Shown: in pieces, positions 2,804 through 53,768 of the stretch
Numbering within the stretch: position 1 is the stretch's first letter
Layout: the number at the start of each line of letters is the position of its first letter
Source: Streptomyces sp. NBC_01788
GTDB taxonomy: Bacteria; Actinomycetota; Actinomycetes; Streptomycetales; Streptomycetaceae
Length of the DNA: 64,000 nucleotides
Reading direction: 5' to 3'
Assembly (NCBI RefSeq): GCF_035917575.1
Contig: NZ_CP109090.1
Location: 1,302,001-1,366,000, forward strand
Notes under the pieces: generated by a model
Told to the model about the DNA's origin: nothing
The model's database searches: none
Seen by the model: only the letters and a program-made list of their open reading frames with translations
Made by a program: the position numbers and the translations under genes

Positions 2804-3311
2804 AGCAGTGGAGCCGGCTGCGGCTGACCGGATCAGCCGGGCGGGCCGATCCGACCGCGTGGTGCGGGACCGGCCACCGGCGGCCCGGCGGGCGCTTCGG
2901 CACGCCCGCCGCCACACCCGCCCGCTCCCACCGGCACTCCCCCGCACGGCACGGGCGGTGGGTGCGTCTCGTACTCCTGAAGGCGGATGACGATGGTCGG
3001 TGGGGGCGGTGTGAGAGGCGCGGGGGTGATCTTCGTGTGGTGGAGGGCGGTGGCGCGGGTCGAGAGGGTCGCCGACGGAGGTGACCGCAAGGCTGTGAGC
3101 AGGGGTTTCGCGGGTGCGGGAGGTCGTTTCACGGCCGCCGGGGTCCAGCCGTTCGAGCCCGGCGGAGCTTGGGCGCCGTCGCCGGATTGGAGTAGCTCCG
3201 CGAGAAGATCGTCGCTCCTCCGGGTGATCGTAGATGGACCACCCTTCTGGGTGCACCACCCTCTGACCGGGGGGCAACCGGCCTTCCGGAAGGCGAAAGC
3301 AGGCACGGCTC
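2804..3311. other. Non-coding leader upstream of rppA
   Basis: No convincing gene lies here. The last 80 bp hold several inverted repeats. CACCC/GGGTG occurs at 3240-3253, and the perfect 14-bp palindrome GCCTTCCGGAAGGC lies at 3281-3294, 17 bp before the rppA start. These are candidates for an operator or a structured 5' leader. I do not recognise a known riboswitch. Confidence 0.4.
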
Positions 3312-37193: not shown

Positions 37194-38575
37194 ATACTGG
37201 GACGGTTTCAACGTGATAGGCAACACTATTGACCAGGCCGTTCGACCGCCACATGATCTTCACTGTTTATTTTTATGAAAAATTAAGAGGCGGGTGGGGG
37301 CGTGTTTACGCGAGAACGGTGGCGCGGCTGGCGTCAGACAGCGCGGAGTGGGGTGGTAGCCCTTACTCTTCTAGGAGTTGCCGTCCCGGTGACCGGGGCG
37401 ACTCGGGCACTCGCCGATGAGCGGGTGACCTCGACAGCAGCTAGCGGGACTCCGGAGTCGCAGGCGAGTGCTCTCGCGGCAGAGATCGGTGAGCGTGTCG
37501 CCGTGGAGGCGGTGACCACCGAGTCGTCGCAGGTCTTCGCTAACCCGGACGGTACCTTCACCCAGGAGATGAACGCGGCTCCCGTCCGTGCCCGGAAGGA
37601 CGACGGTACTTGGGCCCCCATCGACACCACCCTTGTACGCGAGGCCGATGGTTCTATACGGGCCAAGAACACGACGACCGATGTCACCTTTTCGGGCGGG
37701 GGTAGCGGGGACGGACTGGTCACGCTGGAGGACAAGGGACACGAGTTGCAGCTCGGCTGGCCCACCGCGCTTCCCGAGCCCCGGATTGATGGCAACACCG
37801 CTACCTACCCCGGAGTCCTCCCGGACATCGATCTGAAACTGACCGCGCTCAGTTCCGGCTACACCTCGGTTCTCGTGGTCAAGACCGCTGAGGCGGCAAA
37901 GAACCCGGCGCTTGAGACGATCTCGATGGCCGTCTCCGGCGGTGGCCTGGACATAACCCCAACGGCCGACGGGGGTTTCGTCGCGCGCGACAGCGACGGC
38001 ACCCCAGTCTTCGAGAGCCCGGCGGGGCAGATGTGGGACTCGGCCGGTGACACCCCGGCGACTGTCACCGCTACCTCAACCGTCACCCCGCAATCCGCCC
38101 GCAATGCTTCGGCGGAACTGGCCCCTCTGCCCGACGCCAAGGGCGAGCCGGCCCCCTCGGAGGGCCCCGGCAGCGGAGACGCGGCGGCCAAGCTCCCGCT
38201 CAAGGTCACCGGCACCACCCTGGAGATCACGCCCGACCCCGCCCTACTCCATGGCAAGGACACCGTCTTCCCGCTCTACATCGACCCGCCGACCAAGGGC
38301 GTCACGCTGGGGGACTATACGGCTCTGGCCTCCAACGGCACCAAGTACTGGAAGTTCAGCGGGGACAAGGGCGTGGGGCGCTGCTCCAACTACGCCGGCT
38401 ATCTCTGCTCCAGCAGCGCGTACACCCAGCGCATGTACTTCGAGTACCCGCTCTCGTCGATCCATGGCAAGAAGGTGCTGGACGCGACGTTCGAGGTGTA
38501 CCAGGTGTGGACGTTCACCTGTGATCCGCACGTGTACGACCTGACCCGTGTGGACAAGGGCATCTCCTCCAGCAC

Positions 38576-39951
38576 CAGGGTCTTTGAGAAGTGATCTTGT
38601 GTCCGGGTTCGTCAGGTCAGTCCGAGGGCGGTGAGGGGCCGCTGGTGGTCACGGCCGGTGCGGCGGAGGGCGGCGGCGATGTTGGTGTGGCCGTCCTGGC
38701 GGTGGACGCCGATGGCGAGATTGCGCAGGCCGGCCATCACGCGGGGCAGGTGCCGGGTGCAGATTTTGGAGGCGTCCTCGCGGAAGGTGCGGTCTCGGAC
38801 GTGGTGGAGCTGGTTTTCGATGAGCCAGTGCCCGCGGATCCAGGCGGCGAGTTCGCTGCCGGTGGCCGCGCCGGGCGGCAGGCTCGTGACCAGGTAGATC
38901 CGCTCGATCGTCAGCCTGCCGGTGCCCAGGTCCCGTCTCCAGCGCACGACTTGGAGGGCCTGGCGGGCGTGCGGGTAGTCGAGGTGGGCGAAGGTGGCGG
39001 TCTTCAGCCGGCGGATCTCCTCGCGGTGGTGGGCCCGGGCGCGTTCGTAGTGGTCCAGGCGGACATCACGCCAGGGTAGGCGGCGGACCTTCTGATGCAG
39101 TCCGGGGTGGTTCTTCTTGACGACGGCCAGGTAGTGGGCCCCGCGTTCATGCAGGTAGGAGGCGTGGTCGTGCTGGGTGTGAAGAGCGTCCGCGGTGATC
39201 ACCGCGCCGGTCAGGTCGAGGCCGTCCAGGAGTGGGGCGAAGGCCGGGATCTCGTTGCTCTTGCCGTCGATCTGACGTTGGGCGAGGACCTGGCCGTCGT
39301 GGGTCATGGCGGCGATCAGGGAAGTGGCCCGCTGTTTTGTGGTGCGGGAGCCACGGAGTGTCTTGCCGTCGACGGCGATGACCTTTCGTCCCGGGGCCGG
39401 GGCCTTGCGTTCCTGGAGGAAGTCGCCGATGGCGCGGTCGAGGGCGTCACCGTCCGCGGCGGCCAGGACGAGACGGATGGTCGTGGCATGGGGCGGGCGG
39501 ATCAGGCCGGTCAGCGGATCGGGCCGGAACCCGAGCAGGGCCAGGGCCCTCTGCGGTGCGTCGGCGACCCACTCTCCGATCGCCGTAATCGAGGCGGCGC
39601 CTGCCAGAACGGCGGCGGCCGCAGCGGTGAGCAGGGCTGTCCAAGGGTGACGTATGCCGCGACGGGCCCGTGGGTCAGGCACCGTGGCCATATAACTCCG
39701 CAGGTCAACGGCTGCCTCCAGCGGGGCTGAGCCGGAGGCGTCCCCCAGTTGTCGAAGGCATGACGGCATGCGGGAAGATGGGTGTGCAGGCATGGACTCG
39801 CTCGGTGCTCATACGGACTCGACACCCACATGATCACCAGCGGCCATGCCTGTTCTGCGTCCAGGGTCACCCACAGACAGAAGTCGACAAGCCGTCACAA
39901 CCGGTGCTCAGCAAGCGAACCCGCCCACCTCGGCACTTCTCAAAGACCCTG
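38576..39951 (-). mobile_element. ISAs1-type insertion sequence (1,376 bp)
   Basis: Bounded by perfect 18-bp inverted repeats, CAGGGTCTTTGAGAAGTG at 38576-38593 and its complement at 39934-39951. It is flanked by a 10-bp target duplication, CCTCCAGCAC, at 38566-38575 and 39952-39961. Size, repeat length and duplication length all fit ISAs1. It carries one transposase gene on the minus strand. Confidence 0.92.
38612..39793 (-). CDS. ISAs1 family transposase
   Basis: 393 residues, apparently intact. DDE residues are visible in VIAVDGKTLRGSR, VITADALHTQ and the glutamate of HWLIENQLHHVRDRTF. The N-terminal DDE_Tnp_1-associated region (DLRSYMATVPDPRARRGIRH) is typical. An ATG eight codons further in is an alternative start. 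With intact ends and an intact gene the element may still be mobile. Confidence 0.92.
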   Translation of the reverse strand: MPAHPSSRMPSCLRQLGDASGSAPLEAAVDLRSYMATVPDPRARRGIRHPWTALLTAAAAAVLAGAASITAIGEWVADAPQRALALLGFRPDPLTGLIRPPHATTIRLVLAAADGDALDRAIGDFLQERKAPAPGRKVIAVDGKTLRGSRTTKQRATSLIAAMTHDGQVLAQRQIDGKSNEIPAFAPLLDGLDLTGAVITADALHTQHDHASYLHERGAHYLAVVKKNHPGLHQKVRRLPWRDVRLDHYERARAHHREEIRRLKTATFAHLDYPHARQALQVVRWRRDLGTGRLTIERIYLVTSLPPGAATGSELAAWIRGHWLIENQLHHVRDRTFREDASKICTRHLPRVMAGLRNLAIGVHRQDGHTNIAAALRRTGRDHQRPLTALGLT

Positions 39952-42401
39952 CCTCCAGCACCACCTGGTCGACCCGCCCCACTGGGGTGGACTTGATGGT
40001 CGACCGGACGGTGGCCTACGGGCGGGGCACTCTGTGCAGCCCGTCGCAGCCGGCGAACTGGGTGCGGTTCAGTGACAACCTGGAGGAGACGAACGAGAAC
40101 CTGACGCCGACCCTCGCCTCCTACGCCGCGAACAAAGAGGCGCAGATCACTTTCTCGCTGACTGCACACGACGAGTCCAATGCGGCTTCCTGGGCGCGGT
40201 TCCGCAACGACGCGAAGCTGTCGGTGACTTACGTCTCCTATCCGGACAAGCCGACCGCGTACGGCGTCCAGCAGGGCACCACCGGGCGGGCGTGCAATGC
40301 TTCCACGCTGCCCTTCGCCACCAGCGACACGAAGCCGAAGATGCTGGCCACGGTGCAGTCCGTTGACGGCTCCAACGCGCAACTGCGCGCCATGTTCGAG
40401 GTGTGGAAGGCCGACGGCTCCAGCCGCGCCTGGTACGCGGCGTCGCCGGACAGTGCCTGGGTGGCCCACAACGCCGCGCGTACCGCGACCTCCAGCGCGC
40501 TGCCGGCGCAGACGGATTACCGCATGCGCGTCAAAACGCAGGCGTACTACAAGACTGACCGGGGCGCCACTGGTGTCCTGGACTCGGCCTGGTCGTCCTG
40601 GTGCTACTTCCGGGTCGATACCGATTCGCCACCGCCTCCGGTGATCACCAGCGCGGATGGTCTCTACAAGCCGGCCGAGGCCAACCCGGCCGCCGGCGGG
40701 GTGGGCACGCCGGGCAAGTTCACCTTCACTCCTGCGGACACCAACCCGAGCGTGCCCGGGATCCAGTCGGACGTCGTCAGCTACAAGTGGAGGCTGAACA
40801 GCGGCGCGGTCTCCTCGCCGATCACCGTCGCACAGGGCACTGCCACCACCCAGACGATCACTCCCAACCAGGCCGGTGAGAACACCATCCAGGTCTGGGG
40901 CTACGACGCGGCCGGACACAGCTCACTCACCGGCTACTACAGCTTTCTTGTGAAGGGTGCCGAGAAGCCCTCGGGAATCTGGCACCTGGACAACGCCCTC
41001 ACCGACTCCACCACCGCCACCCAGCACCCGTTGACCTCCTCGGGGGCCACTTGGGACACCCTGGCACGCAGCGGCTCCAGCGCCGCGAAGTTCAACGGCA
41101 CAAGCGCCTACCTCTCCACCTCCGGCGCGGTACTGGACACCACCAAGTCCTTCACCGTCTCGGCGTGGGCGCGTCTGACGAAGAACGACGTCAACTACAC
41201 CGTCCTGTCCCAGGCGGGGACGAACGCCTCCGGGTTCCAGCTGTACTATTCCACCGCCTACAACGCCTGGATCTTCAACCGCCACCAGACGGACGTCACC
41301 AGCCCCGCGATCACCCGCTCGATCGGCACCAAACCGCCGGTCCTGAACGTCTGGACTCACCTGGCGGGTGTCTACAACGCGGCGGCGCAGACCCTTCAGC
41401 TCTACATCAACGGCGTCCCGCAGGGCAATCCGGTGCCGTTCACTACCCCGTGGAAGGCGTCCGGCGGCCTTCAGGTCGGGCGGCTGTGGTACAAGACGGC
41501 TGGTGCGGAGAACTTCGCCGGCACGATCGATGAGGTGGAGGTCTGGTCCCGCGCGCTCGCGGACACCGAGGTCGCCCACGAGGCCTGGCTGGAGGATGAG
41601 GACCTCAGCGACGGCACTGCCGGTGACCCGGTCCCGGCGCTCGTCGCCAAGTGGGACGCCACGGACATCGCCAACGCGACCGGCACCACGATCAAGGACA
41701 CCAGCGGCTTCGGCCGGAACCTGACGCTCAGCGGTGCCAAGCTCACCCAGCTCACCACCGGCGACCCGGAAATCGGCGAAGAGGTCACCACGACTCAGAC
41801 GATGACCCTGAACGGCACCAGCGCGTACGCCACCGCCGCCGGCCCGGTTGTCGACGACTCCGGTTCGTTCACCGCGACCGCCTGGGTCACGCTGGACCCC
41901 GCCAAGCTCGCCGACACCAGCAAGTCGTACGCCGTGCAGGTGTTCGGCCAGTCAGGGACCAGCCAGTCCTCCTGGGGCGTCTGGTACGAGCAGCCGGCCG
42001 GAAGCACCCAGGGCCGATGGACGTTCGGCCGCCCCGATAAGGACGGCACCGGCGCGGTGTGGACCAAGAGTGACTCCACCGCATTCACCACGGCCAAGCT
42101 GGGCGTTCCGGTGATGCTGACGGTCGTCTACGACGCCCAGGCAGCAACCGACCCCGACGACACCTCCAAGCTCGGCGGGCTCAAGCTCTACGTCGACAGC
42201 GCCAGGATGGGCGACGAGGACGGCGTGTCATACCCGGCCCCCTGGCAGGGCAGTGGAGCGTTCGAAATCGGCCGGGCAAAGATCAACGGCGCTGCCGCAC
42301 GCTACTTCCCCGGGATGATCGACAGCGTCCGCGTCTGGGCCGGAGCCACCTCCACCGACATGATCGCCAACCGGCGCAACGCCGAGCAGCAGTAGCAGCG
42401 G

Positions 42402-42559: not shown

Positions 42560-45500
42560 GTGTCGTCAACTCCCTTCCGCCCACGCTTGCCAGGGGCGGT
42601 CATACGCCGCTGGCTCGGCCGTGGAGCGCTCGTCGTCTCCCTCTCCGTCCTTCCGCAAGTCGTGGTTCCTTCGGGCTACGACTTCGCCGCCCAGGCCCAG
42701 TCCACGTCGGCCCGCAAGAAGCTGGAGGACCGGCCCGACGCGAAGATCGACAAGGTGGGCGTGCTCCAGCCCGGCACGTCCAAGGCACCGAAGGACAGGG
42801 CCGCCCCCGCCGCCCGCGAGACCCGTGAACGGCTGAAGAAGGCCGCCTGGCCGAAGCCCGGGAAGATCACCGCCGCCGTCCCGACATCCGGCGGGACCTC
42901 CGTCTCCGTCGGCGGGCTCGGCGTGAAGCTGGCTCAGGAACCCGCCGCGCCGACACTCAAGGAGACGAAGAACAGGACGGCCGCGAAGGCCACCGCTCCG
43001 GCCGAGGTGGCGCTCAGCGTCCATCCCCAGTCGGCCGCGAAGAAAGCGGGCGTCAACGGCGTCCTGCTCACCGTCGACCCGACGGGAGCCGCATCCGGGA
43101 AGTCCGCCGGTGACACCGACAAGCTCCGGATCTCCCTGGACTACTCCTCCTTCAACGACATCTACGGCGGCAACTTCGGCCCCCGCCTGAGCCTTGTGAC
43201 ACTCCCAGCGTGTGCGCTGACCACCCCGGAAAAGGCATCCTGCCGAACCCAGAGTCCCGTGACCGGCGCGGACAACGACGCGCAGGCCCAGACACTGACG
43301 GGCACCGTCTCCGGCCGCACCCTCGCCTCCGGCACACCGATGCTGCTGGCGGCGGCGGCCGACAGTTCGGGCGGCGGCAGCGACTACAGCGCCACCCCGC
43401 TGTCCCCGACCGCGACCTGGGAGGCTGGCGGCAGCACGGGTGACTTCAGCTGGGACTACCCGCTGCGGGTTCCCCCTGCGACGGCCGGCCCGTCCCCGAA
43501 CCTGTCCATCTCCTACAACTCCGCCTCGGTAGACGGCCGTACGGCCGGGGAGAACAACCAGACCTCCGTGATCGGCGAGGGCTTCTCGATCACCGAGTCC
43601 TACATCGAGCGCAAGTACGCCTCCTGCAAGGACGACGGCCAGTCCGGCAAGGGCGACCTGTGCTGGAAGTACGCCAACGCGACTCTGGTCCTCAACGGCA
43701 AAGCCGTCGAGCTGGTCAACACCTGCACCGACAAGGCAGCCTGCGACACCGCAGCCCGGTCCCAGGCGTCCGGCGGCACCTGGAAGATGAAGAACGAGGA
43801 CGGCACCCGCGTCGAGCACCTGACCGGAGCCACCGGCAACGGCGATGACAACACCGAGTACTGGAAGGTCACGGACGCCTCCGGCACCCAGTACTTCTTC
43901 GGCAAGCACCGCCTGCCCGGCTGGAGCGACAAGGGCACCACCGACACCGCCGACGACGACCCCGTCACCAACTCCGTGTGGACCGTCCCCGTCTTCGGCA
44001 ACGACTCCGGCGAACCCTGCTACAAGTCCACCGGCTTCGCCGACTCCTTCTGTTCCCAGGCCTGGCGCTGGAACCTGGACTATGTCGTGGACACCCACGG
44101 CAACGCCTCAGCGTACTGGTACAACCGGGAGACGAACTACTACTCCAAGAACGCCGACACCACTGTCAACGGCACCAGTTACACCCGCGGCGGCTACCTC
44201 GACCACATCGACTACGGTCTGCGCAGCGACCTGATCTACAGCAAGCCCGCCGCCCAGCAGGTCCGCTTCACCTACGCCGAGCGGTGCGTCGTCTCGGGCG
44301 GCTGCACCAGCCTGACGAAGGACACAAAGGCCAACTGGCCCGACGTGCCCTTCGACATGATCTGCGCGGCCAACACCAAGTGCACCACCCAGATCGGCCC
44401 GGCCTTCTTCACCCGCAAGCGCCTGACCGACGTCACCACCTCGGTGTGGACCGGCACCGGCACCACCCGCCGGGACGTGGACACCTGGCACCTGGAGCAG
44501 AGCTTCCCCGACACCGGTGACGCCTCCTCGCCGAGCCTGTGGCTGAAGTCCATCCAGAACACCGGCAAGGCCAACACCACCACGGCCGCCATGCCGCCGA
44601 TCGTCTTCGGCGGCATCCAGATGTCCAATCACGTCGAGGGCAGCGGCCCGGACACCCTTCGCTACATCAAGTGGCGCGTACGTACCATCAAGTCCGAGAC
44701 CGGCTCGACCACCACCGTCAACTACTCGGACCCGGACTGCATCTGGGGCACCAAAATGCCCGCGGCCGTCGACAAGAACACCCGCCGCTGCTTCCCGGTC
44801 AAGTGGTCGCAGTCCGGCGCAACCCCGGTCACCGACTGGTTCCACAAGTACGTGGTCACCTCCGTCTTCCAGGACGACCCCTACGGCCACGGCGACACCG
44901 GCGAAACCTACTACGACTACCAGGGCGGCGCCGGCTGGGCCTACGCCGACGACGAGGGCCTGACCAAGACGTCCAACCGCACCTGGTCGCAGTGGCGCGG
45001 CTACGGCAAGGTCGTCCAGACCGGCGGCAACACCGAGGGTCCGCGCAGCAAGAAGTCCACCCTGTACATGCGCGGACTGAACGGCGAGAAGGAACTCGAC
45101 GGCACCCCCCGCGTGGAGAAGGTCACCGACTCCACCGGCACCGCCATCGACGACTCCCGCCAGTACGCCGGCTTCGTCCGCGAGACCATCGTCTACAACG
45201 GCAACGAAGAAGTCAGCGGCACCATCAACACCCCCTGGTCCCACAAGACCGGCAGCCACGCCTACAGCTGGGGCACCACCGAGTCCTGGATCGTCCAGGC
45301 CGGCGAGACCGCCACCCGCACCAAGACCTCCACCGGCACCCGCACGGTCAAGCAGAAGACCACCTACGACACCACGTACGGCATGCCAGTCACCGTGGAG
45401 AACACCGGCGACACCGCCAAAACCGGCGACGAGATCTGCACGCGAACCACGTACGCCCGCAACACGTCGGCCTGGCTGGTAGCGAAGATCAGCCGTGTCG

Positions 45501-48500
45501 AGGTCTACTCCGTCTCCTGTGCGGCCATGCCGGCGGTTCCCGGGGACGTCGTCTCCGACGTCACCACAGCCTACGACGGCCAGGCGGTCGGCGTGTCGCC
45601 TACCAAGGGCGACATCACTGCCTCCTTCCGGGTCGCCAGCTACAACGCAATGGACAAGACACCCGTTTACCAGCAGGTCTCCGGCTCCACCTACGACAAG
45701 CTGGGTCGCCCGCTCACGGAGACCAACGCCCTGAACGGCACGGTCAAGACCACGTACGTCCCCGACGACAACGGCTATGGCCCGCTGAAGTCCAAGATCT
45801 CCATCGACCCCAAGCTCTACAGCTCCACCACCGAGGTAGACCCGGCCTGGGGCACAGCAACCAAGACCACCGACGCCAATGGCAACGTTACCGAGTGGTC
45901 CCTGGACGCGCTTGGTCGCCTGCGGTCGGTCTGGAAGCCGGACCGCTCACGCACCCTCGGTGACGCTGCCAGCATCGTCTACGCCTACAGCATCAACAAC
46001 GACAAGCAGACCTGGGTCCGCACCGACGCCCTCAAGGCCGACGGAAAGACCTACAACAGCTCCTACGAAATCTTCGACAGCCTGCTGCGGTCCCGTCAGA
46101 AGCAGGTCCCAGCGCCGAACGGCGGCCGGGTGATCTCCGAGACCCTCTACGACGACCGCGGCCTGGCCTACATCACCAACGGGCAGGTCCACGACAACAG
46201 CGCACCCTCGGGCACCCTCGCCAACACCTACCCCGGCTCCGTCCCCGCCTCCACCAAAACGGTCTTCGACGCCGCCGGTCGCGCCACCGAATCGATCTTC
46301 CGGGTCTACGACCAGGAGAAGTGGCGCACCAAGACGGAGTACCAAGGCGACCGCACCGCCGTCACCGCCGCCGCAGGCGGCACCGGCACCCTGAGCATCA
46401 CCGACGCCCGCGGCAGGCTCATCGAGCGCCGTGAATTCAGTAGCCCCGTCCCGACCGGCACCGACTACACCCGCACCCTCTTCGAACACGACCCAGCCGG
46501 CCAGCTGACGAAGATGACAGGCCCGGACAACGCCGTCTGGTCCTACGGCTACGACCTACGCGGCCGCAAGATCACTTCTAGCGACCCCGACAAGGGCACC
46601 GTCACCACCACCTACAACGACGCCGACCAACCGGTGACCACCACGACGACCCTCAACAAGGTCACCCGTACCCTGATCACCGACTACGACGAGCTCGGCC
46701 GCAAGACCGGCACCTGGGACGGCGTGCAGGACAACGCCCACCAACTGACCAAGTTCACCTACGACTCCCTCGCCAAGGGACAACTGACCGCAGCCATCCG
46801 GTACGTCGGCGGCACCACCGGCAAGATCTACTCCCAGGCCATCACCGGCTACGACGATCTCGGCCGCCCCAAGGGCATCAAGACCGTCATCGCAGCCACC
46901 GACCCCCTCGTCACCGCCGGTGCGCCGCAGACCTTCACCACCTCCACCACCTACAACATCGACGGCACCGTCCAGTCCACCTCGATGCCCGCAGTGGCCG
47001 GCCTGCCAGCCGAGACCGTAGCCAACAGCTACAACGGCCTTGGCATGCTCACCGGCACTGACGGCATGACCGACTACGTCCAGAACATCGGCTACTCCCC
47101 GTACGGCGAGATCGAGGAAACCCGCCTGGGCACATCCACCGGTGCCAAGCAGCTCCAGATCCTCAACCGCTACGAGGACGGCACCCGCCGGCTGGACAAC
47201 ACCCACACCGTCGATCAGAGCAACGCTGGCTACACCAGCGACGTCAACTACACCTACGACGCCACCGGCAACGTCAAGTCGATCACCGACAACGCCAACG
47301 GCAAGGACACCCAGTGCTTCGCCTACGACGGCTACCGCCGTCTGACCGAAGCCTGGACCCCCTCCTCCAACAACTGCGCCACCGCCCGCTCGGCGACCAC
47401 GCTCAGTGGCCCGGCCCCGTACTGGACCAGCTGGACCTACAAGCCCGGCGGCCTGCGCGACACCCAGACCGAGCACAAGGCCACTGGTGACACCAAGACC
47501 GTCTACGACTATGCCGCCGGCAATGCCTCCGGCACCGGCCAGCCCCACACACTGACCTCACTCACCGTCAACGGCGGCACCGCCAAGACCTTCACGTACG
47601 ACGAGCAGGGCAACACCACCCAGCGCTACGGCCCCACCGGCATCGCGCAGAACCTCACCTGGGACATCGAGGGAGAACTCGTCCGCCTGACCGAAGGCAC
47701 CAAGACCACCGACTACCTCTACGACGCCAACGGCGATCTCATGATCCGCCGCGGCCCCGACAAGACCATCCTTTACCTGGCTGGCCAGGAACTCCACTAC
47801 GACACCGCGGCCAAGAAGTTCAGCGCCCAACGCTACTACGCAGCCGGTGACGTCACCGCCGCCCGTACCGAGACCAGCCTGACCTGGATGGTCGACGACC
47901 ACCATGGCACCGCCTCTATGGCAGTCGACGCCACCACTCAGGCCGTCACCCGCCGCTATACCAAGCCCTTCGGTGAGACCCGCGGCACGACACCACCGAC
48001 CTGGCCCGACGACAAGGGCTTCCTTGGTAAAACCGTCGACACTGGCACCGGACTCACTCACGTCGGCGCCCGCGAGTACGACCCGACCACCGGCCGTTTT
48101 CTCTCCGTGGACCCGGTCCTCGTCCCCGATGACCACGAATCCCTCAACGGCTACGCCTACTCCAACAACACCCCCGTCACCAAGGCCGATCCCACCGGCT
48201 TGCGGCCGCTCTCGGGCTGCGAGGAGGGTTGCAGCGACGGCAAGGGCGGCACCTACCGGGACTATGTGACACCTAGCAGCAACGGCTGGGTATACCACTC
48301 CACCAGCACATACGTGACCAAGGTCCCCGACACGTCGGACACGTACCTGAGTACGACGGTGCATACCCGCGCCGGAAAGACGACCGCGGTCAGCGTCGCT
48401 GTCTTCAAGAAGCCGAGCTTCAAGAAGGGGCCGAACCCCGAACCGGAGCGGAAAGACGGCAAGAAGGGACCCGACGGCGAAGAAACCATAGACCTCTCCG

Positions 48501-49069
48501 CTCAGCAGCTGGTCACAGTCTGGGCCATGGGCGGACCGACGGAGATCACCCTTCCCCCGGACGGCGAATTCGTCAGGCAGCTTCGCACCGAGGACCACTT
48601 CAGATCGTTCACCAGGATGGTGCAGGGCCTGATCAAGGACGGCGTGTACGCGAAGAAGGGGACCTTCCACAAGTCTCACTCTGAGCGGAGCAATGGCGAA
48701 ATGCTCTGGGAGGGACTCACCGACCTCACCGGGTTCTTCACATCGGGGATCTACGGGGCCAGTCCCGCAAGCCTCGCCCTCGGTTCCTACAACCTCGACT
48801 ACGAACTGCTCGGGGTGTCCTGCCGGCCGCCCCAGACGGATTCGGAGTGGGACCACGGAGCACTGGTCGGCCAGGTGCAGATAGCAGTGTCCAACCGCAT
48901 GACGGTAGCCTCGGCCACCCGCAGCCTGTCGAACGACGGGTACAAGAATGGAAGCACCAATCCCATCATGAAGGCTGGCTCGGACGCCGTTAAGAAAATC
49001 TTCCCTGAGGGTCAGAGAGACATCAACGTGAAGATCACCTGGATTGAGGAAGTGTATGTACCGTACTAA
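42560..49069 (+). CDS. Secreted RHS/YD-repeat polymorphic toxin with unrecognised C-terminal domain
   Basis: 2,169 residues from a GTG. The N-terminus has an Arg-containing hydrophobic signal (RRWLGRGALVVSLSVLPQVVV). A wall/SpvB-like region spans about 200-1000. YD repeats follow (YDxxGRxxxxT patterns, for example YDKLGRPLTET and YDELGRKTGTW) from about 1050 to 1830. The RHS-associated core ends with GAREYDPTTGRFLSVDP at about 1836 and DPTGLR near 1877. The remaining roughly 290 residues are the variable tip: a lysine/proline-rich linker, then HFRSFTRMVQGLIKDGVYA, GSYNLDYELLG and a conserved-looking ISNRMTVASATR-like segment. I do not recognise this domain. By family analogy the tip is a toxin released by the RHS cocoon. 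The last 14 bases overlap the start of a small lipoprotein gene, the expected position of an immunity gene. Confidence 0.92.
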   Translation: MSSTPFRPRLPGAVIRRWLGRGALVVSLSVLPQVVVPSGYDFAAQAQSTSARKKLEDRPDAKIDKVGVLQPGTSKAPKDRAAPAARETRERLKKAAWPKPGKITAAVPTSGGTSVSVGGLGVKLAQEPAAPTLKETKNRTAAKATAPAEVALSVHPQSAAKKAGVNGVLLTVDPTGAASGKSAGDTDKLRISLDYSSFNDIYGGNFGPRLSLVTLPACALTTPEKASCRTQSPVTGADNDAQAQTLTGTVSGRTLASGTPMLLAAAADSSGGGSDYSATPLSPTATWEAGGSTGDFSWDYPLRVPPATAGPSPNLSISYNSASVDGRTAGENNQTSVIGEGFSITESYIERKYASCKDDGQSGKGDLCWKYANATLVLNGKAVELVNTCTDKAACDTAARSQASGGTWKMKNEDGTRVEHLTGATGNGDDNTEYWKVTDASGTQYFFGKHRLPGWSDKGTTDTADDDPVTNSVWTVPVFGNDSGEPCYKSTGFADSFCSQAWRWNLDYVVDTHGNASAYWYNRETNYYSKNADTTVNGTSYTRGGYLDHIDYGLRSDLIYSKPAAQQVRFTYAERCVVSGGCTSLTKDTKANWPDVPFDMICAANTKCTTQIGPAFFTRKRLTDVTTSVWTGTGTTRRDVDTWHLEQSFPDTGDASSPSLWLKSIQNTGKANTTTAAMPPIVFGGIQMSNHVEGSGPDTLRYIKWRVRTIKSETGSTTTVNYSDPDCIWGTKMPAAVDKNTRRCFPVKWSQSGATPVTDWFHKYVVTSVFQDDPYGHGDTGETYYDYQGGAGWAYADDEGLTKTSNRTWSQWRGYGKVVQTGGNTEGPRSKKSTLYMRGLNGEKELDGTPRVEKVTDSTGTAIDDSRQYAGFVRETIVYNGNEEVSGTINTPWSHKTGSHAYSWGTTESWIVQAGETATRTKTSTGTRTVKQKTTYDTTYGMPVTVENTGDTAKTGDEICTRTTYARNTSAWLVAKISRVEVYSVSCAAMPAVPGDVVSDVTTAYDGQAVGVSPTKGDITASFRVASYNAMDKTPVYQQVSGSTYDKLGRPLTETNALNGTVKTTYVPDDNGYGPLKSKISIDPKLYSSTTEVDPAWGTATKTTDANGNVTEWSLDALGRLRSVWKPDRSRTLGDAASIVYAYSINNDKQTWVRTDALKADGKTYNSSYEIFDSLLRSRQKQVPAPNGGRVISETLYDDRGLAYITNGQVHDNSAPSGTLANTYPGSVPASTKTVFDAAGRATESIFRVYDQEKWRTKTEYQGDRTAVTAAAGGTGTLSITDARGRLIERREFSSPVPTGTDYTRTLFEHDPAGQLTKMTGPDNAVWSYGYDLRGRKITSSDPDKGTVTTTYNDADQPVTTTTTLNKVTRTLITDYDELGRKTGTWDGVQDNAHQLTKFTYDSLAKGQLTAAIRYVGGTTGKIYSQAITGYDDLGRPKGIKTVIAATDPLVTAGAPQTFTTSTTYNIDGTVQSTSMPAVAGLPAETVANSYNGLGMLTGTDGMTDYVQNIGYSPYGEIEETRLGTSTGAKQLQILNRYEDGTRRLDNTHTVDQSNAGYTSDVNYTYDATGNVKSITDNANGKDTQCFAYDGYRRLTEAWTPSSNNCATARSATTLSGPAPYWTSWTYKPGGLRDTQTEHKATGDTKTVYDYAAGNASGTGQPHTLTSLTVNGGTAKTFTYDEQGNTTQRYGPTGIAQNLTWDIEGELVRLTEGTKTTDYLYDANGDLMIRRGPDKTILYLAGQELHYDTAAKKFSAQRYYAAGDVTAARTETSLTWMVDDHHGTASMAVDATTQAVTRRYTKPFGETRGTTPPTWPDDKGFLGKTVDTGTGLTHVGAREYDPTTGRFLSVDPVLVPDDHESLNGYAYSNNTPVTKADPTGLRPLSGCEEGCSDGKGGTYRDYVTPSSNGWVYHSTSTYVTKVPDTSDTYLSTTVHTRAGKTTAVSVAVFKKPSFKKGPNPEPERKDGKKGPDGEETIDLSAQQLVTVWAMGGPTEITLPPDGEFVRQLRTEDHFRSFTRMVQGLIKDGVYAKKGTFHKSHSERSNGEMLWEGLTDLTGFFTSGIYGASPASLALGSYNLDYELLGVSCRPPQTDSEWDHGALVGQVQIAVSNRMTVASATRSLSNDGYKNGSTNPIMKAGSDAVKKIFPEGQRDINVKITWIEEVYVPY

Positions 49070-49514
49070 GCGAAGTCGGCAGGCTCTCTTCGCGGTCGCG
49101 CTCTCCGCTGGCCTTGTGACGGGTGTGTCCGCCTGCTCGGCAGAAGAGGAGTTTCCCGTCCCGACGGACGACCAGGTTGTCGGCACCTGGAGCAATCCCG
49201 GGAGGGATTGGATCAAATTTAAAGAGGGAGGTACGGGCCTCATTTCCGCAGGAGCACAGCTTCAATTGAGCGCACTAATGGAGGAGGCCGACATCAAGGA
49301 CGCGTGTGAGTTCTCCTGGGGGGTGGACACTGTACCCGCAGGAGGCAGCAAGTGGGTTTCCGTCACCTTCACAAAAGGGCAATGCGGTTTCTCGGGGCCG
49401 GGTGAGTTTGGCCTCAATTACTACTACACGGATTCGGGGGAACTGCGCCTGTCTCCGGCTGTTGAATTCCCGGAACCTGACGAGGTATATGCGCGAACGA
49501 ATGCCGCCTCATAG
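49056..49514 (+). CDS. Small lipoprotein, candidate immunity protein for the RHS toxin
   Basis: 152 residues. The basic start MYRTKRSRQ, hydrophobic stretch ALFAVALSAGLVTG and lipobox VSAC predict a membrane-anchored lipoprotein of about 125 mature residues. It overlaps the RHS 3' end by 14 bp, with GAGGA a few bases before the ATG, so the two are translationally coupled. Gene position, size and co-translation are those of polymorphic-toxin immunity genes. An outer-face location suggests the toxin acts at or outside the membrane. Function is inferred. A strong terminator follows. Confidence 0.75.
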   Translation: MYRTKRSRQALFAVALSAGLVTGVSACSAEEEFPVPTDDQVVGTWSNPGRDWIKFKEGGTGLISAGAQLQLSALMEEADIKDACEFSWGVDTVPAGGSKWVSVTFTKGQCGFSGPGEFGLNYYYTDSGELRLSPAVEFPEPDEVYARTNAAS

Positions 49515-49542
49515 GGGGAAGAGGATTTGACCTGACGATTGG

Positions 49543-49576
49543 TCGACGGGGAGGCGGATTTTCGCCTCCCCGTCGA
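49543..49576 (+). terminator. Terminator after the RHS-immunity pair
   Basis: A perfect 14-bp stem: TCGACGGGGAGGCG (49543-49556) pairs with CGCCTCCCCGTCGA (49563-49576), with loop GATTTT. It begins 29 bp past the lipoprotein stop and closes the unit. Confidence 0.85.
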
Positions 49577-49619
49577 AGAGGCTCTTCTCCCTGTAGACCG
49601 CCAAGCGCAGATTGTCCAG

Positions 49620-50130
49620 GCCCTGGACATTCTTGATGCGCGAATCACTCACGCAAACGCAGAAGCCAGCCCGCAGCTTCCGACACGCCCGGCGCGCACC
49701 AGGCTCGCCACGACACCGCTTGAGTGGCGTCGGCAGATCCGCTACGTCGCGATCGACATGTCCCCCGGCTACCGGACCGCCATCCACACCGGACTGCCGC
49801 ACGCCACCGTAGTCGTCGACCACTTCCACATGGTGCAGCTCGCCAACAAGATGCTGAACATCGTCCGGCGTCGGACCACCGTCGCCCTGCGCGGCCGACG
49901 CGGACGGGCCCGCGACCCGGAGTGGAAGGTCAGGCGTCGGCTCCTGCGCAACCGCGAAGACCTCACCGACACCCAGTTCACACGATGTGGAACGTACTGA
50001 TCGACGCCGGGACGATCGGGATGACGCTGCTGACCGCGTGGATCGCCAAGGAGAAGCTGCGGGACCTGCTCGCCTGCGCCCGCACCGGCGCAGACCGCCA
50101 CCGCATCGGCCACCTGCGCTTCAAGTGCCC
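49620..50130 (+). pseudogene. ISL3-family transposase fragment
   Basis: The frame reads IRYVAIDMSPGYRTAI, then VVVDHFHMVQLANKMLNIVRRR, the catalytic region of ISL3 transposases. Near 49985 the frame shifts to MWNVLIDAGTIGMTLLTAWI and EKLRDLLACAR. Both ends are missing, with no inverted repeats seen. A dead relic between the two toxin modules. Confidence 0.75.
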
Positions 50131-50370
50131 ACCAGTGCCTTGTTCAGGCCGAACGATGCGACAAACGTCAGCACATACGCTGCGACCCGGTGCGCGAGCA
50201 GCACGCGCAGCGGCGCGTTCCGAGCCCCCTGCAGCAGCTGAACCGCCGCAGCCAGTTCGGCAGCCCGGAGGTCTTCCCCTGCGTCCTCGCCGGACTCTCC
50301 ACAAGCGGCTCGTCGCAGCGCGTCGGTGACCAGCACGCTCTGCTCCGCGACTGCTGCCTGCTGCCCGGGG
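50121..50370 (-). pseudogene. Possible C-terminal fragment of an unknown protein
   Basis: A minus-strand frame ends AAELAAAVQLLQGARNAP, then HRVAAYVLTFVASFGLNKAL with a hydrophobic tail. The composition is protein-like, but there is no recognised family and no start. It may be debris from an insertion next to the orphan toxin. Confidence 0.25.
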
Positions 50371-50937
50371 ATGGCCCCGCATCCCGGCTACAAGGGCACC
50401 GCCACAGGACCGTCGTGGGGCGTGGCTGGTGAGATCGCACTGATGGCCTGCGGCTGGGTGCCCGCGGTCGGCGCCGGATGTGACGCCGTGGACCTGGGTC
50501 GCTCCGCCGTGGACAAGGACGCCCTCGGGGTCGGCCTCGGGGTGGCTGGTTTCATTCCGCTCGCGGGCGACGCGGCAAAGCTGCCGAAGCAGCTCGACAA
50601 CATAGCCGATGCGGTCAAGCTCGCGCACAAGATTGCCTCCTCGCCGTTCTCCACCAAGCTGGATCGGATCTCCGAGCACCTGCAGATGAAGGACCTCACC
50701 GCGGCTGCGCGGGAACTGAAGGGAGAGGTGGTCGCCCGGAAGGCAGACGGTACCCCGTGGGATCATGTCCACGAGGTTCGGGACGCCCAGAACGGCCTGC
50801 TCAACGCGATCGGTGACATCAACAGGAAACTGGCCCACCCCAAGACGGGTGGTGCCGAGCGAGACCTTCTCGTCGCAGACCTGGGGCGGGCTAGCAAAAT
50901 GCTGGACTACTCCGAGCAGTTCGTTCCCAGGGGGTGA
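50371..50937 (+). CDS. Orphan C-terminal polymorphic toxin module (type-28-like)
   Basis: 188 residues from an ATG after CCCGGGG; the true boundary is uncertain. The first half is a Gly/Ala-rich hydrophobic pre-toxin region (VAGEIALMACGWVPAVGAGCD, then GVAGFIPLAGDAAK). The second half ends WDHVHEVRDAQNGLLNAIGD, INRKLAHPKTGG, RASKMLDYSEQFVPRG. From memory this resembles the polymorphic toxin type 28 domain found at RHS tips. No RHS core precedes it, so it is a displaced tip. The next gene starts 7 bp later and should be its immunity gene. Confidence 0.7.
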   Translation: MAPHPGYKGTATGPSWGVAGEIALMACGWVPAVGAGCDAVDLGRSAVDKDALGVGLGVAGFIPLAGDAAKLPKQLDNIADAVKLAHKIASSPFSTKLDRISEHLQMKDLTAAARELKGEVVARKADGTPWDHVHEVRDAQNGLLNAIGDINRKLAHPKTGGAERDLLVADLGRASKMLDYSEQFVPRG

Positions 50938-50944
50938 GTGGAGC

Positions 50945-51547
50945 ATGACAGTGACGCATGACGAGTACCTGCGGCAGCTGACCGCGCGCGCGAAGGACGG
51001 CACTATCCCGCAACAAGAGGTGAAGGAGATCGCCCGGACCATTTCCGAGGGTCGGGCCGGCCGGGACCTGTACCGGTTGTTGTACGCGGTGGCCCGCGCG
51101 GGCGGTCCGGCGTACGAGTCTCTGGTCGCCAGCTATCTGATTTACCCAGAGGACCCCGAGGTCTCGGCGCTCGCCGTGCAGGTGCTCACGGGGCACTGGA
51201 GAGTGGGAGCAAAGTACTCGAAGACCATACTCGAGTTGCTGGGCTCCGCCGATTGGGACCTGAGTGACGACGCGTTCATGGCGGCGCTCTCGGGGGCGGG
51301 GGAGATCCTGCACGACGGGTTCGATGCCGAACTACTCCACGCCCTACTGAAGCTCGCCGAGGAGGGCCGCGGTGAATACGGCGACGATCTCATGCAGCGT
51401 CTCGCGGTAGAAGCGATCGCCCGCGCGCTGGGCGCCAGCCATGCCGAATCTATGAGACCGCCCGAGGGAGTCACGCGTGCGGAGTGGTCGCAGGGCTTGC
51501 TGAGTGCCGCGCGTGACCGACTCCACGATGCGGCACGTCAGGCCTGA
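50945..51547 (+). CDS. Candidate immunity protein for the orphan toxin module
   Basis: 200 residues, cytosolic and mostly helical, with repeats reminiscent of HEAT-type (PEVSALAVQVLTGHWR, DDAFMAALSGAGEIL, DAELLHALLKLAEEG). GGAG precedes the ATG, 7 bp after the toxin stop. The order toxin tip then small helical protein is that of toxin-immunity pairs. No membrane segment, so its target probably acts inside the cell. The exact family is not recognised. Confidence 0.65.
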   Translation: MTVTHDEYLRQLTARAKDGTIPQQEVKEIARTISEGRAGRDLYRLLYAVARAGGPAYESLVASYLIYPEDPEVSALAVQVLTGHWRVGAKYSKTILELLGSADWDLSDDAFMAALSGAGEILHDGFDAELLHALLKLAEEGRGEYGDDLMQRLAVEAIARALGASHAESMRPPEGVTRAEWSQGLLSAARDRLHDAARQA

Positions 51548-51562
51548 TTCAGCTGACAGCCG

Positions 51563-51601
51563 AGCAGGCCCCGGCAGGACAACGTCCGGCCGGGGCCTGC
51601 T
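51563..51601 (+). terminator. Terminator after the orphan toxin-immunity pair
   Basis: AGCAGGCCCCGGC (51563-51575) pairs perfectly with GCCGGGGCCTGCT (51589-51601), 15 bp after the immunity stop. Confidence 0.8.
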
Positions 51602-51769
51602 GAAGCCTCGAAGACCTGCTGCAGACGGTGCGCATACATGATCTGTCCGACGAGCTGCGAGCATAGTGAGGATGCGCTGGTAGTCCGCCGATAGCACTGC
51701 CCAGGCCAGCCCCTCACAGCGCAGCTGCCGAGAAGGTTCGCTGATCGCGTGTGAAGGCCCGCGAGAGCA

Positions 51770-52306
51770 AGGATCGCCTCCCAGTCGGTTCCCGCACCGA
51801 TCCGCTGCCTGGTCGAGCAGGGTCACCCCGGCGGCGTTGTCGTGCGCCGACGCGGCCAGGACGACGACGCCGATGATCAGTCCCCGCTTGCGCCCCGGCG
51901 TCCGCTTGTTGGCGTCCAGCCCCGTCGTGGTCTTCGGAACTCCCGCGGCCGCGCGCACGGACTGGGTGTCGATGACCACGAGGGACGGGGCCTTTAATCG
52001 GCGGGCCTTCTCCCGCACCTGGCAGCGCAGGAGTTCCTGGATCCGCTGATCGAGCCCGTCCTTGCGCCACAGGGTGAAGTAATAGAACACCGCCGACCAG
52101 GCGGGCAGGTCATGGGGCAGATAGCGCCACTGGCAGCCCGTCCGGTTCTGGTAGAAGATCGCGGTCACGACCTCCTGGAGATCACAGGTCCCGGGATCCT
52201 TGGTCGCCGACCGCGCCACACGGTCCTGCTTCCAGGACGTGATCATCGGCTCGAGCAAGGCCCACCGCTCGTCCGATAAGTCGCTTGGATACGGCTCACG
52301 CTCCAT
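51770..52306 (-). pseudogene. IS5-family transposase, truncated copy
   Basis: From ATG at 52306 it reads MEREPYPSDLSDERWALLEP, TGCQWRYLPHDLPAWSAVF and VIDTQSVRAAAGVPKTTTG, clearly the same family as the copy at 52520. Seven residues (AVDVLGL in the other copy) are missing after GRKRG, and homology ends near 51780 at RCGNRLGG. The C-terminal catalytic part is lost. Its left end abuts the left end of the other copy, head to head. Confidence 0.8.
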
Positions 52307-52519
52307 TCCTCTATCTGGGCATGCGCATGCCCCATGTCCAATCACCGCCCCGAACGGCAACAGTCACACGAACGAGCGATCACGAACCCAGAGAGATGGG
52401 ACTTACTGATCATTTCAGAGGGCATTAAGTCCCGTTTCTGGTGATGTGGTGTCGCTCGTTCGTGGGCGATAGGACGGTTCCATCCTCGCGTCATGTCGTG
52501 TGCATGATGGAGTCGCGGC

Positions 52520-53373
52520 ATGGAACGGATGCCGTACTCAACCGACTTGCCCGACGAGCAGTGGGCGTTGATCGAGCCGCTGGTCACCGCGCGGAAGCAG
52601 GAGCGGGTGGCGCGGTCGGCGACGGGAGACCCGGGCTCCTGCGGCCTGCGCGAGGTTGTGAACGCGCTGCTCTACCAGAACCGGACGGGCTGTCAGTGGC
52701 GGCTCCTGCCACACGACCTTCCGGCCTGGTCGGCGGTGTTCTACTACTTCACCCTGTGGCGCCAGGACGGCCTTGACCAGCGGATCCAGGAGATCCTGCG
52801 CTGCCAGGTGCGGGAGCGGTCCAGACGATTAGAGGACCCCTCCCTCGTGATCATCGACACCCAGTCCGTCCGCGTGGCGGCCGGGGTGCCGAAGGAGACG
52901 GCGGGACTGGACGCGAACAAGAAGACGCCCGGCAGGAAGCGGGGACTCGCCGTCGACGTGCTGGGTCTGATCATCGGTGTAGTGGTCCTGGCTGCGAGCG
53001 CGCACGACAACGAGGCCGGCATCGCCCTGCTGGACCAGGCGGCCGAGCGGTGCGGGATGCGCCTGGAGAAGGTCCTGGTCGACCAGGGTTTCAAGGACGC
53101 CGTGGTCATCCACGGGGCGGTGAAGGACATCACCGTCGAGGTGGTCCGACGCAACCCCGACGACGAGGGCATAGGCTTCGTCCCGCAACCGAAGCGTGGG
53201 TGGTCGAGCAGGTCAACGGCACCCTCATGCTGCAGCGGCGCCTCGCCCGCGACTACGACCACCGGCCCGACAAAGCGGCCTCCCGCGTCTACTGAGCCTC
53301 CACCGCCGGCATGCTCCGCCGCCTCACCACCCCTACCCCCACCTGGCGCGACGACGTGGAGCTGGCCGCGTGA
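52520..53373 (+). pseudogene. IS5-family transposase with frameshift and nonsense codon
   Basis: Reads well from MERMPYSTDLPDEQWALIEP through VIDTQSVRVAAGVPKETAG to GFVPQPKR. Near 53195 one base appears missing; the next frame continues WVVEQVNGTLMLQRRLARDY to SRVY, then meets TGA at 53294-53296 where tryptophan is expected. The family C-terminus (TAGMLRRLTTPTPTWRDDVE) follows to a TGA at 53371. Two lesions make it inactive. The stop overlaps the start of the winged-helix gene. Confidence 0.85.
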
Positions 53374-53768
53374 ACGTCTGCGAACTCCTGCGGCTGCTGC
53401 TGACCGAACACGATGAGACCGCAGCCCGCGCCGACAACCTGCGCGAGCAGCGGCTCACCACCGACCTCGCCGAGACCGAAGTCCGCCTGGCCGAGCTCGC
53501 CGCCACCCGCAAGGTCATCGACGGCCTCACCCCTCCCGACCATGCAACCGCCCCCGCGGCGACCGCCACCGCCACCGTCTACCAGCGCATCGTGACCACG
53601 TTCAACGAACACCCCGGAAAGGTGTTCCGCGGCCGCGATCTGCACGAGCACCTCGGCCTGCCCACCGACGAGCCCTCGACAAACGTCACCCGCTCCCGCC
53701 TGGGACGACTCGTCCGCCAGGGACTCCTCACCCAGCCCGGACGCGGCCGCTATCAGAAACGGACTTAA
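53370..53768 (+). CDS. Winged-helix passenger protein of the IS5-type element
   Basis: 132 residues from a GTG that overlaps the transposase stop (GTGA). The first half is charged and likely coiled-coil (about 15-50, LREQRLTTDLAETEVRLAEL). After a Thr/Ala linker comes a winged-helix-like domain (about 68-132, YQRIVTTFNEHPGKVFRGRD to RSRLGRLVRQGLLTQPGRGR). I recall similar proteins next to IS5-type transposases in other Streptomyces. It lies inside the element's inverted repeats, and its TAA is within the right repeat. A regulator or transposition helper is likely; function is unproven. Confidence 0.7.
   Translation: MNVCELLRLLLTEHDETAARADNLREQRLTTDLAETEVRLAELAATRKVIDGLTPPDHATAPAATATATVYQRIVTTFNEHPGKVFRGRDLHEHLGLPTDEPSTNVTRSRLGRLVRQGLLTQPGRGRYQKRT

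Follow-up and report, generated by a model that had tools for sequence, protein, structure and literature searches.

An RHS toxin tip that may share the colicin M fold, and its lipoprotein partner, in Streptomyces

RHS genes are present in at least 18 of 19 Streptomyces genomes and in at least 11 of 12 genomes of the order. To our knowledge, few of the tips that they carry in Streptomyces have a known target. One such gene lies in the window analysed here, a stretch of 64,000 nucleotides from Streptomyces sp. NBC_01788 (contig NZ_CP109090.1, positions 1,302,001 to 1,366,000), whose genome is a single contig of 8.27 Mb (G000). The gene that follows it encodes a lipoprotein, which raises the question of what the tip attacks and whether protection against it is placed on the outside of the cell.

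The RHS gene, its tip and their surroundings

A preliminary description, made from the letters of the sequence, had proposed an RHS toxin with an overlapping lipoprotein gene, and both are real: the frame at 42560-49069 is open, an RHS-associated core (TIGR03696) is present, the lipoprotein gene overlaps the 3' end of the RHS gene by 14 bp, and its product carries a lipobox with Cys27 (Table 1). RHS repeats (PF05593, E 9e-15 in a profile search of the window RHS protein) lie together with the core ahead of the tip, as in RHS polymorphic toxins. When residues 1870-2169 were used as query, 82 proteins were retrieved, of which 18 cover 73-100% of it (P0043-P0060) and 64 cover 15-52%. All 15 of the partial matches that were inspected share the region after the core and then diverge into different tips, among them a ribonuclease domain, Ntox28 and Ntox44 (precomputed Pfam annotation), and the window protein is thus one of a set in which the same stem or linker carries different tips. 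Because the linker (about 1882-1977) is common to proteins with other tips, the tip proper comprises residues 1978-2169. The last 290 or so residues had been taken as an unrecognised tip; this length has to be reduced to 192 aa, and the lack of a toxin-family match by sequence was confirmed, while a match in fold was found.

Table 1. Features of the locus, in positions of the window
Feature	Position	Strand	Remarks
RHS polymorphic toxin gene	42560..49069	+	2169 aa, open throughout; N terminus signal-peptide-like (by eye)
RHS-associated core	47963..48202	+	TIGR03696, residues 1802-1881, E 6e-17
Linker common to other-tip Streptomyces RHS proteins	48203..48490	+	residues 1882-1977
Putative toxin tip	48491..49066	+	residues 1978-2169, 192 aa; model resembles colicin M fold
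Conserved tip segment N135-R144	48893..48922	+	putative site of colicin M DxYDx5HR; model residues 141-160 pLDDT about 62
Ribosome-binding-site-like GAGGAAG	49046..49052	+	just before lipoprotein ATG
Lipoprotein immunity candidate	49056..49514	+	152 aa; ATG at 49056; codon of lipobox Cys27 at 49134-49136; small beta-barrel in the model
Hairpin, terminator candidate	49545..49574	+	12 Watson-Crick pairs; no T-run
Displaced Ntox28 toxin tip, further cassette of the locus	50326..50937	+	PF15605, E 5e-30
Candidate immunity gene, Ntox28 cassette	50945..51547	+	assigned by position; no Pfam match

Profile and sequence searches with the window tip gave no Pfam, NCBIfam or PDB sequence match, and a profile of 23 tips with 17-84% identity to it (A2) found nothing convincing among families and PDB sequences (best E 0.0035, from one member). 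The colicin M family profile PF14859 matched none of six tips at E up to 10, in a search whose filters can drop weak matches, and nothing in the whole host genome, where the controls were silent too. Structure prediction, which the preliminary description had suggested and which was run on single chains, gave a tip model resembling the colicin M fold and a small beta-barrel for the lipoprotein.

The best structural matches of the tip model over the whole tip are the colicin M family; the match is modest, with a low Foldseek TM-score, and the tip may fold like colicin M, a toxin that destroys one of the building blocks of the cell wall. Colicin M requires the motif DxYDx5HR (PMC5821083), which lies at 226-236 of the E. 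coli sequence and is absent from all 32 tips compared. Position 135, where the second long strand ends, is N in 25 of these tips, D in three and Q in three, and the position of R144 is H or R in 20 of 23 aligned tips. Since the spacing N135-x-M137-T138-x5-R144 equals that of D226-x-Y228-D229-x5-H235 in colicin M, the active site may have been kept and rebuilt, in a register that we infer; the model is weak in this part (N135-R144), and sequence profiles of the tip and of colicin M did not align there. Colicin M is inactive when D226 is mutated (PMC8469651), so the tip cannot be assumed to work by the same type of catalysis. A subgroup of three tips (L051, L052, L053; also L020, L021, L028) has D for N at position 135 and no convincing downstream immunity candidate.

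A search with the single tip sequence found relatives in 8 of 392 Streptomyces genomes, and a profile of eight tips (A1) matched in 24 of the same 392; in the class, A2 matched in 8 of 394 genomes, two of them from another genus. The distinct tip loci number 32, counted after removal of partial copies (L009/L036 and L010), of fragments in G330 (L031/L037) and of L002, which is the same gene as L011. G98 and S141 are invariant in these tips, W184 is found in 30 and E186 in 28. The proposed survey for the same tip on other RHS stems was successful: one relative (P0060) and one locus (L004) carry it on a different stem, and related tips stand on several stems, some of them RHS proteins and others shorter and lacking any RHS match; one stem has an ALF repeat. 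Apparent orphan copies of the tip adjoin the lipoprotein gene. In L003, the lipoprotein gene is succeeded by a second, partial copy of the tip C terminus (2813-3170; G240:C45 from 35885), beyond which another lipoprotein-like ORF begins, as if cassettes were stacked.

Downstream of the lipoprotein gene of the window, an orphan Ntox28 tip and a candidate immunity ORF (50326-51547) make up a displaced cassette, and Streptomyces sp. NPDC087844 encodes a complete RHS protein ending in an Ntox28 tip (P0086), a truncated window-type tip (P0136) and the lipoprotein (P0006). Transposase remnants flank the toxin cassettes (49539-50100 and 51344-53416; ISL3-like by eye; IS4/5-type DUF4096). Upstream of the RHS gene, an insertion sequence (38577-39950) with a DDE_Tnp_1 transposase on the minus strand and 35-nt terminal inverted repeats, 80% complementary, sits between ORFs 37302-38594 and 39846-42395 (LamG domain), which look like one interrupted gene.

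The lipoprotein and its pairing with the tip

The lipobox of the candidate immunity protein reads V-S-A-C, as expected of a lipoprotein signal peptide, and the column of Cys27 is conserved in at least 90% of 42 aligned relatives. Its model (pLDDT 79.4) is a small beta-barrel, for which the structural matches, Tp0435 and avidins, look like a common barrel. A profile of the lipoprotein has strong matches in 3 of 392 Streptomyces genomes and five weak matches in addition. One of the weak matches (L041) follows an RHS gene whose tip also belongs to the family and was first found through the lipoprotein profile. The weakly related lipoproteins L046, L047 and L048 stand alone, with no family tip in the 7-8.5 kb around each, and are possible orphan immunity genes. 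L045 (G107:C1:7806951-7807100), a 109-codon frame that matches the C-terminal part of the profile only, looks like a remnant. The dedicated terminator that had been assigned to the unit is a hairpin, in a stretch whose predicted folding is much more stable than that of shuffled sequences (z -4.8). It lacks a T-run, and the consensus terminator scan did not pick 49545-49574. A similar hairpin is found 3' of the lipoprotein gene in L003 and is absent in L011.

Three of 392 Streptomyces genomes have a tip of 76% identity or more, and precisely these three have the lipoprotein (E below 1e-70), which together with the 14-bp overlap marks the lipoprotein gene as a candidate immunity gene directly downstream; G343 has a tip of 51% identity without such a lipoprotein. 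For the wider family, the next gene was called anchored when an ORF starting between -150 and +260 bp from the tip stop encoded a lipobox or a hydrophobic N-terminal segment. Of the 32 tip loci, 26 have an anchored next gene by this rule, 15 with a lipobox and 11 with a membrane segment. As controls, 48 Streptomyces RHS loci were chosen blind to the tip from at least 61 other RHS matches, with 13 left out, mostly on short contigs. Two of the 48 (L129, L132) carry the tip family themselves (A2 E 5e-22 and 4e-19; next best 0.31), leaving 46 with other tips, and among these the same rule finds an anchored next gene in five, three with membrane segments and two with lipobox calls that look like multi-helix proteins by eye. 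The p value for 26/32 against 5/46 (2.4e-10) is too small, as relatives are not independent. In all 48 control loci, the only next genes judged to be true lipoproteins are those after L129 and L132. Lipobox pattern matches in L133, L148, L149, L150 and L122 were rejected as lipoproteins by eye.

Inspection showed a G-x-W/Y domain after the anchor that is common to 26 of the 32 partners; it adds L024 and L025, whose partners, missed by the gene-start rule, were cut 22 residues upstream of the lipobox, and removes L050 and L070. Homologous tips without the lipoprotein, which the preliminary description had held to speak against a pair, do exist in part: four of the 32 (L049, L051, L052, L053) have no convincing downstream immunity candidate, and two have an unrelated membrane protein. 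When the window lipoprotein family was compared by hhalign with 20 distant partners (those of L026, L032 and L035, missed by the trimming pattern, were left out), the match was 93.4% with E 2.5e-7 over 102 columns, and the score of 43.5 compares with 18.1 for the best of 100 column shuffles, which do not fully correct for the agreement favoured by trimming at G-x-W/Y. Over 26 pairs, the pairwise identities among the tips are correlated with those among the partners (r 0.84, 0 of 5000 permutations; Spearman 0.20), mostly via the closer pairs. Computationally, then, tip and partner are paired, the partners carry anchoring signals and are related to each other, and the tip is reused on other stems.

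A probable toxin-immunity pair and its possible target

Tip and lipoprotein are very probably a toxin-immunity pair, and it is nearly as probable that this pair acts at the outer face of the membrane; the earlier proposal of an envelope pair is supported by the co-occurrence in three genomes and by the frequency of anchored partners relative to the controls. The best explanation, which we hold with a little more belief than doubt, is that a tip with the colicin M fold attacks a lipid-linked wall precursor and that the lipoprotein is its cognate immunity protein. The RHS stem, with its signal-like N terminus, would display the tip outside the producer, and the tip would reach the outer leaflet of a neighbour's membrane, where it would attack lipid II or some other lipid-linked precursor of the cell wall. 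The barrel of the lipoprotein, tethered by its lipid on the outside of the producer's membrane, would bind the incoming tip, in a scheme that presumes toxicity, the substrate, a catalytic action and direct contact of the tip with the lipoprotein. Its logic is parallel to that of colicin M-type immunity proteins, which sit in or on the cytoplasmic membrane (PMC5821083), and of TipC, which protects against the Gram-positive lipid II phosphatase TelC (PMC6193138).

Less probable, though far from remote, is an envelope toxin with lipoprotein immunity that is no lipid II enzyme but binds to lipid II or to the membrane, or has a different target at the surface. Such a toxin would be in line with the missing catalytic motif and the modest fold match, anchored partners would suit any outer-face target, and a lipid II-dead mutant of pectocin M1 that is sent to the periplasm still lyses cells (PMC5821083); the conserved polar residues at 135 and S141, at the expected end of the catalytic strand, argue against it and suggest a functional site. 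Action in the cytoplasm, with the lipoprotein as an entry blocker or a chance neighbour, is very unlikely. If most RHS toxins act there, an unanchored next gene, or no next ORF, is what would be expected of other tips, and this is the case in 41 of the 46 controls, which also fits the earlier remark that RHS immunity in Gram-positive bacteria is mostly cytosolic; however, 26 of 32 divergent loci, with several different stems, show the pairing and have related partners, which makes chance very improbable and a surface partner the rule. Scarcely less unlikely is a non-toxic surface or adhesive domain, with the lipoprotein as its membrane docking partner or chaperone. The four related tips without a convincing partner would agree with this, but the variety of tips on one linker, the occurrence of this tip on other stems, the apparent orphan tips and the Ntox28 cassette point to a toxin. 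Tip swapping, stem swapping, orphan tips and adjacent toxin cassettes are hallmarks of polymorphic toxins.

We tentatively put forward, as a possibility, an unrecognised actinobacterial superfamily of envelope-toxin tips on RHS and other stems, which would combine the colicin M fold with a rebuilt site (N/D..S..H/R in place of DxYDx5HR), attack lipid-linked wall precursors via other chemistry or on another carrier lipid, and be matched by a separate superfamily of barrel immunity proteins at the outer face, in which lipid and helix anchors are exchanged. With this pair, one tip family acquires an extracellular target that can be tested, together with a matching immunity family, and the rebuilt site, if true, would lend itself to testing which elements of the colicin M fold activity depends on.

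Relation to known systems

Colicin M-like attack is well described in Proteobacteria, and the preferred reading, if true, would extend it to Gram-positive RHS toxins. The window tip is like the colicin M family (PF14859; colicin M, PaeM, pectocins M, syringacin M) in C-terminal position and in having a partner on or in the membrane, and it may share the fold, for which this family gave the best matches over the whole tip. Unlike that family, it has no sequence-family match and no DxYDx5HR, belongs to a Gram-positive host and sits on an RHS or other long stem, and its partner is a predicted barrel lipoprotein, whereas those of the colicin M family are Cmi/YebF-type or multi-helix.

ColM-fold tips of polymorphic toxins were already noted in 2025 in a cystatin-linked system, where they are predicted to act against lipid head groups and where the immunity proteins of the network are described as TM proteins or lipoproteins, in line with the lipoprotein of the window pair (PMC12419801). 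The cystatin-linked system differs in its cystatin-like domain and its BamE-like membrane-anchored immunity, and the available parts of its description make no mention of Streptomyces RHS tips or of a barrel-type partner (PMC12419801). DUF3289/DUF943 was previously proposed as a ColM-like T6SS pair, with the ColM-like domain recognised structurally and periplasmic toxicity rescued by the partner; unlike the window pair, it is a proteobacterial T6SS candidate with a different partner (PMC11148199). Colicin M-like RHS tips in Streptomyces were not found in our literature search; since ColM-fold tips and a ColM-like pair have been described, the window pair is not a new category.

Among Gram-positive bacteria, TelC and TipC of Streptococcus intermedius are comparable, as a lipid II phosphatase countered by outward-facing membrane-anchored immunity (PMC6193138). 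TelC has another fold (PMC5821083), a lipocone (PMC12419801), and its export by the T7SS, like the single TM segment and crescent alpha/beta fold of TipC, is unlike the window pair (PMC6193138). Lipoprotein immunity to an RHS toxin is represented by Imm65 with Tox-JAB-1, described as the sole lipoprotein of a 2012 collection, which differs from the window pair in coming from Bacteroidetes, in being alpha+beta and in a toxin thought to be a nuclease (PMC3482391). If the proposed pair is true, outer-face lipoprotein immunity, called exceptional in that survey (PMC3482391), would be the norm in one tip family at least.
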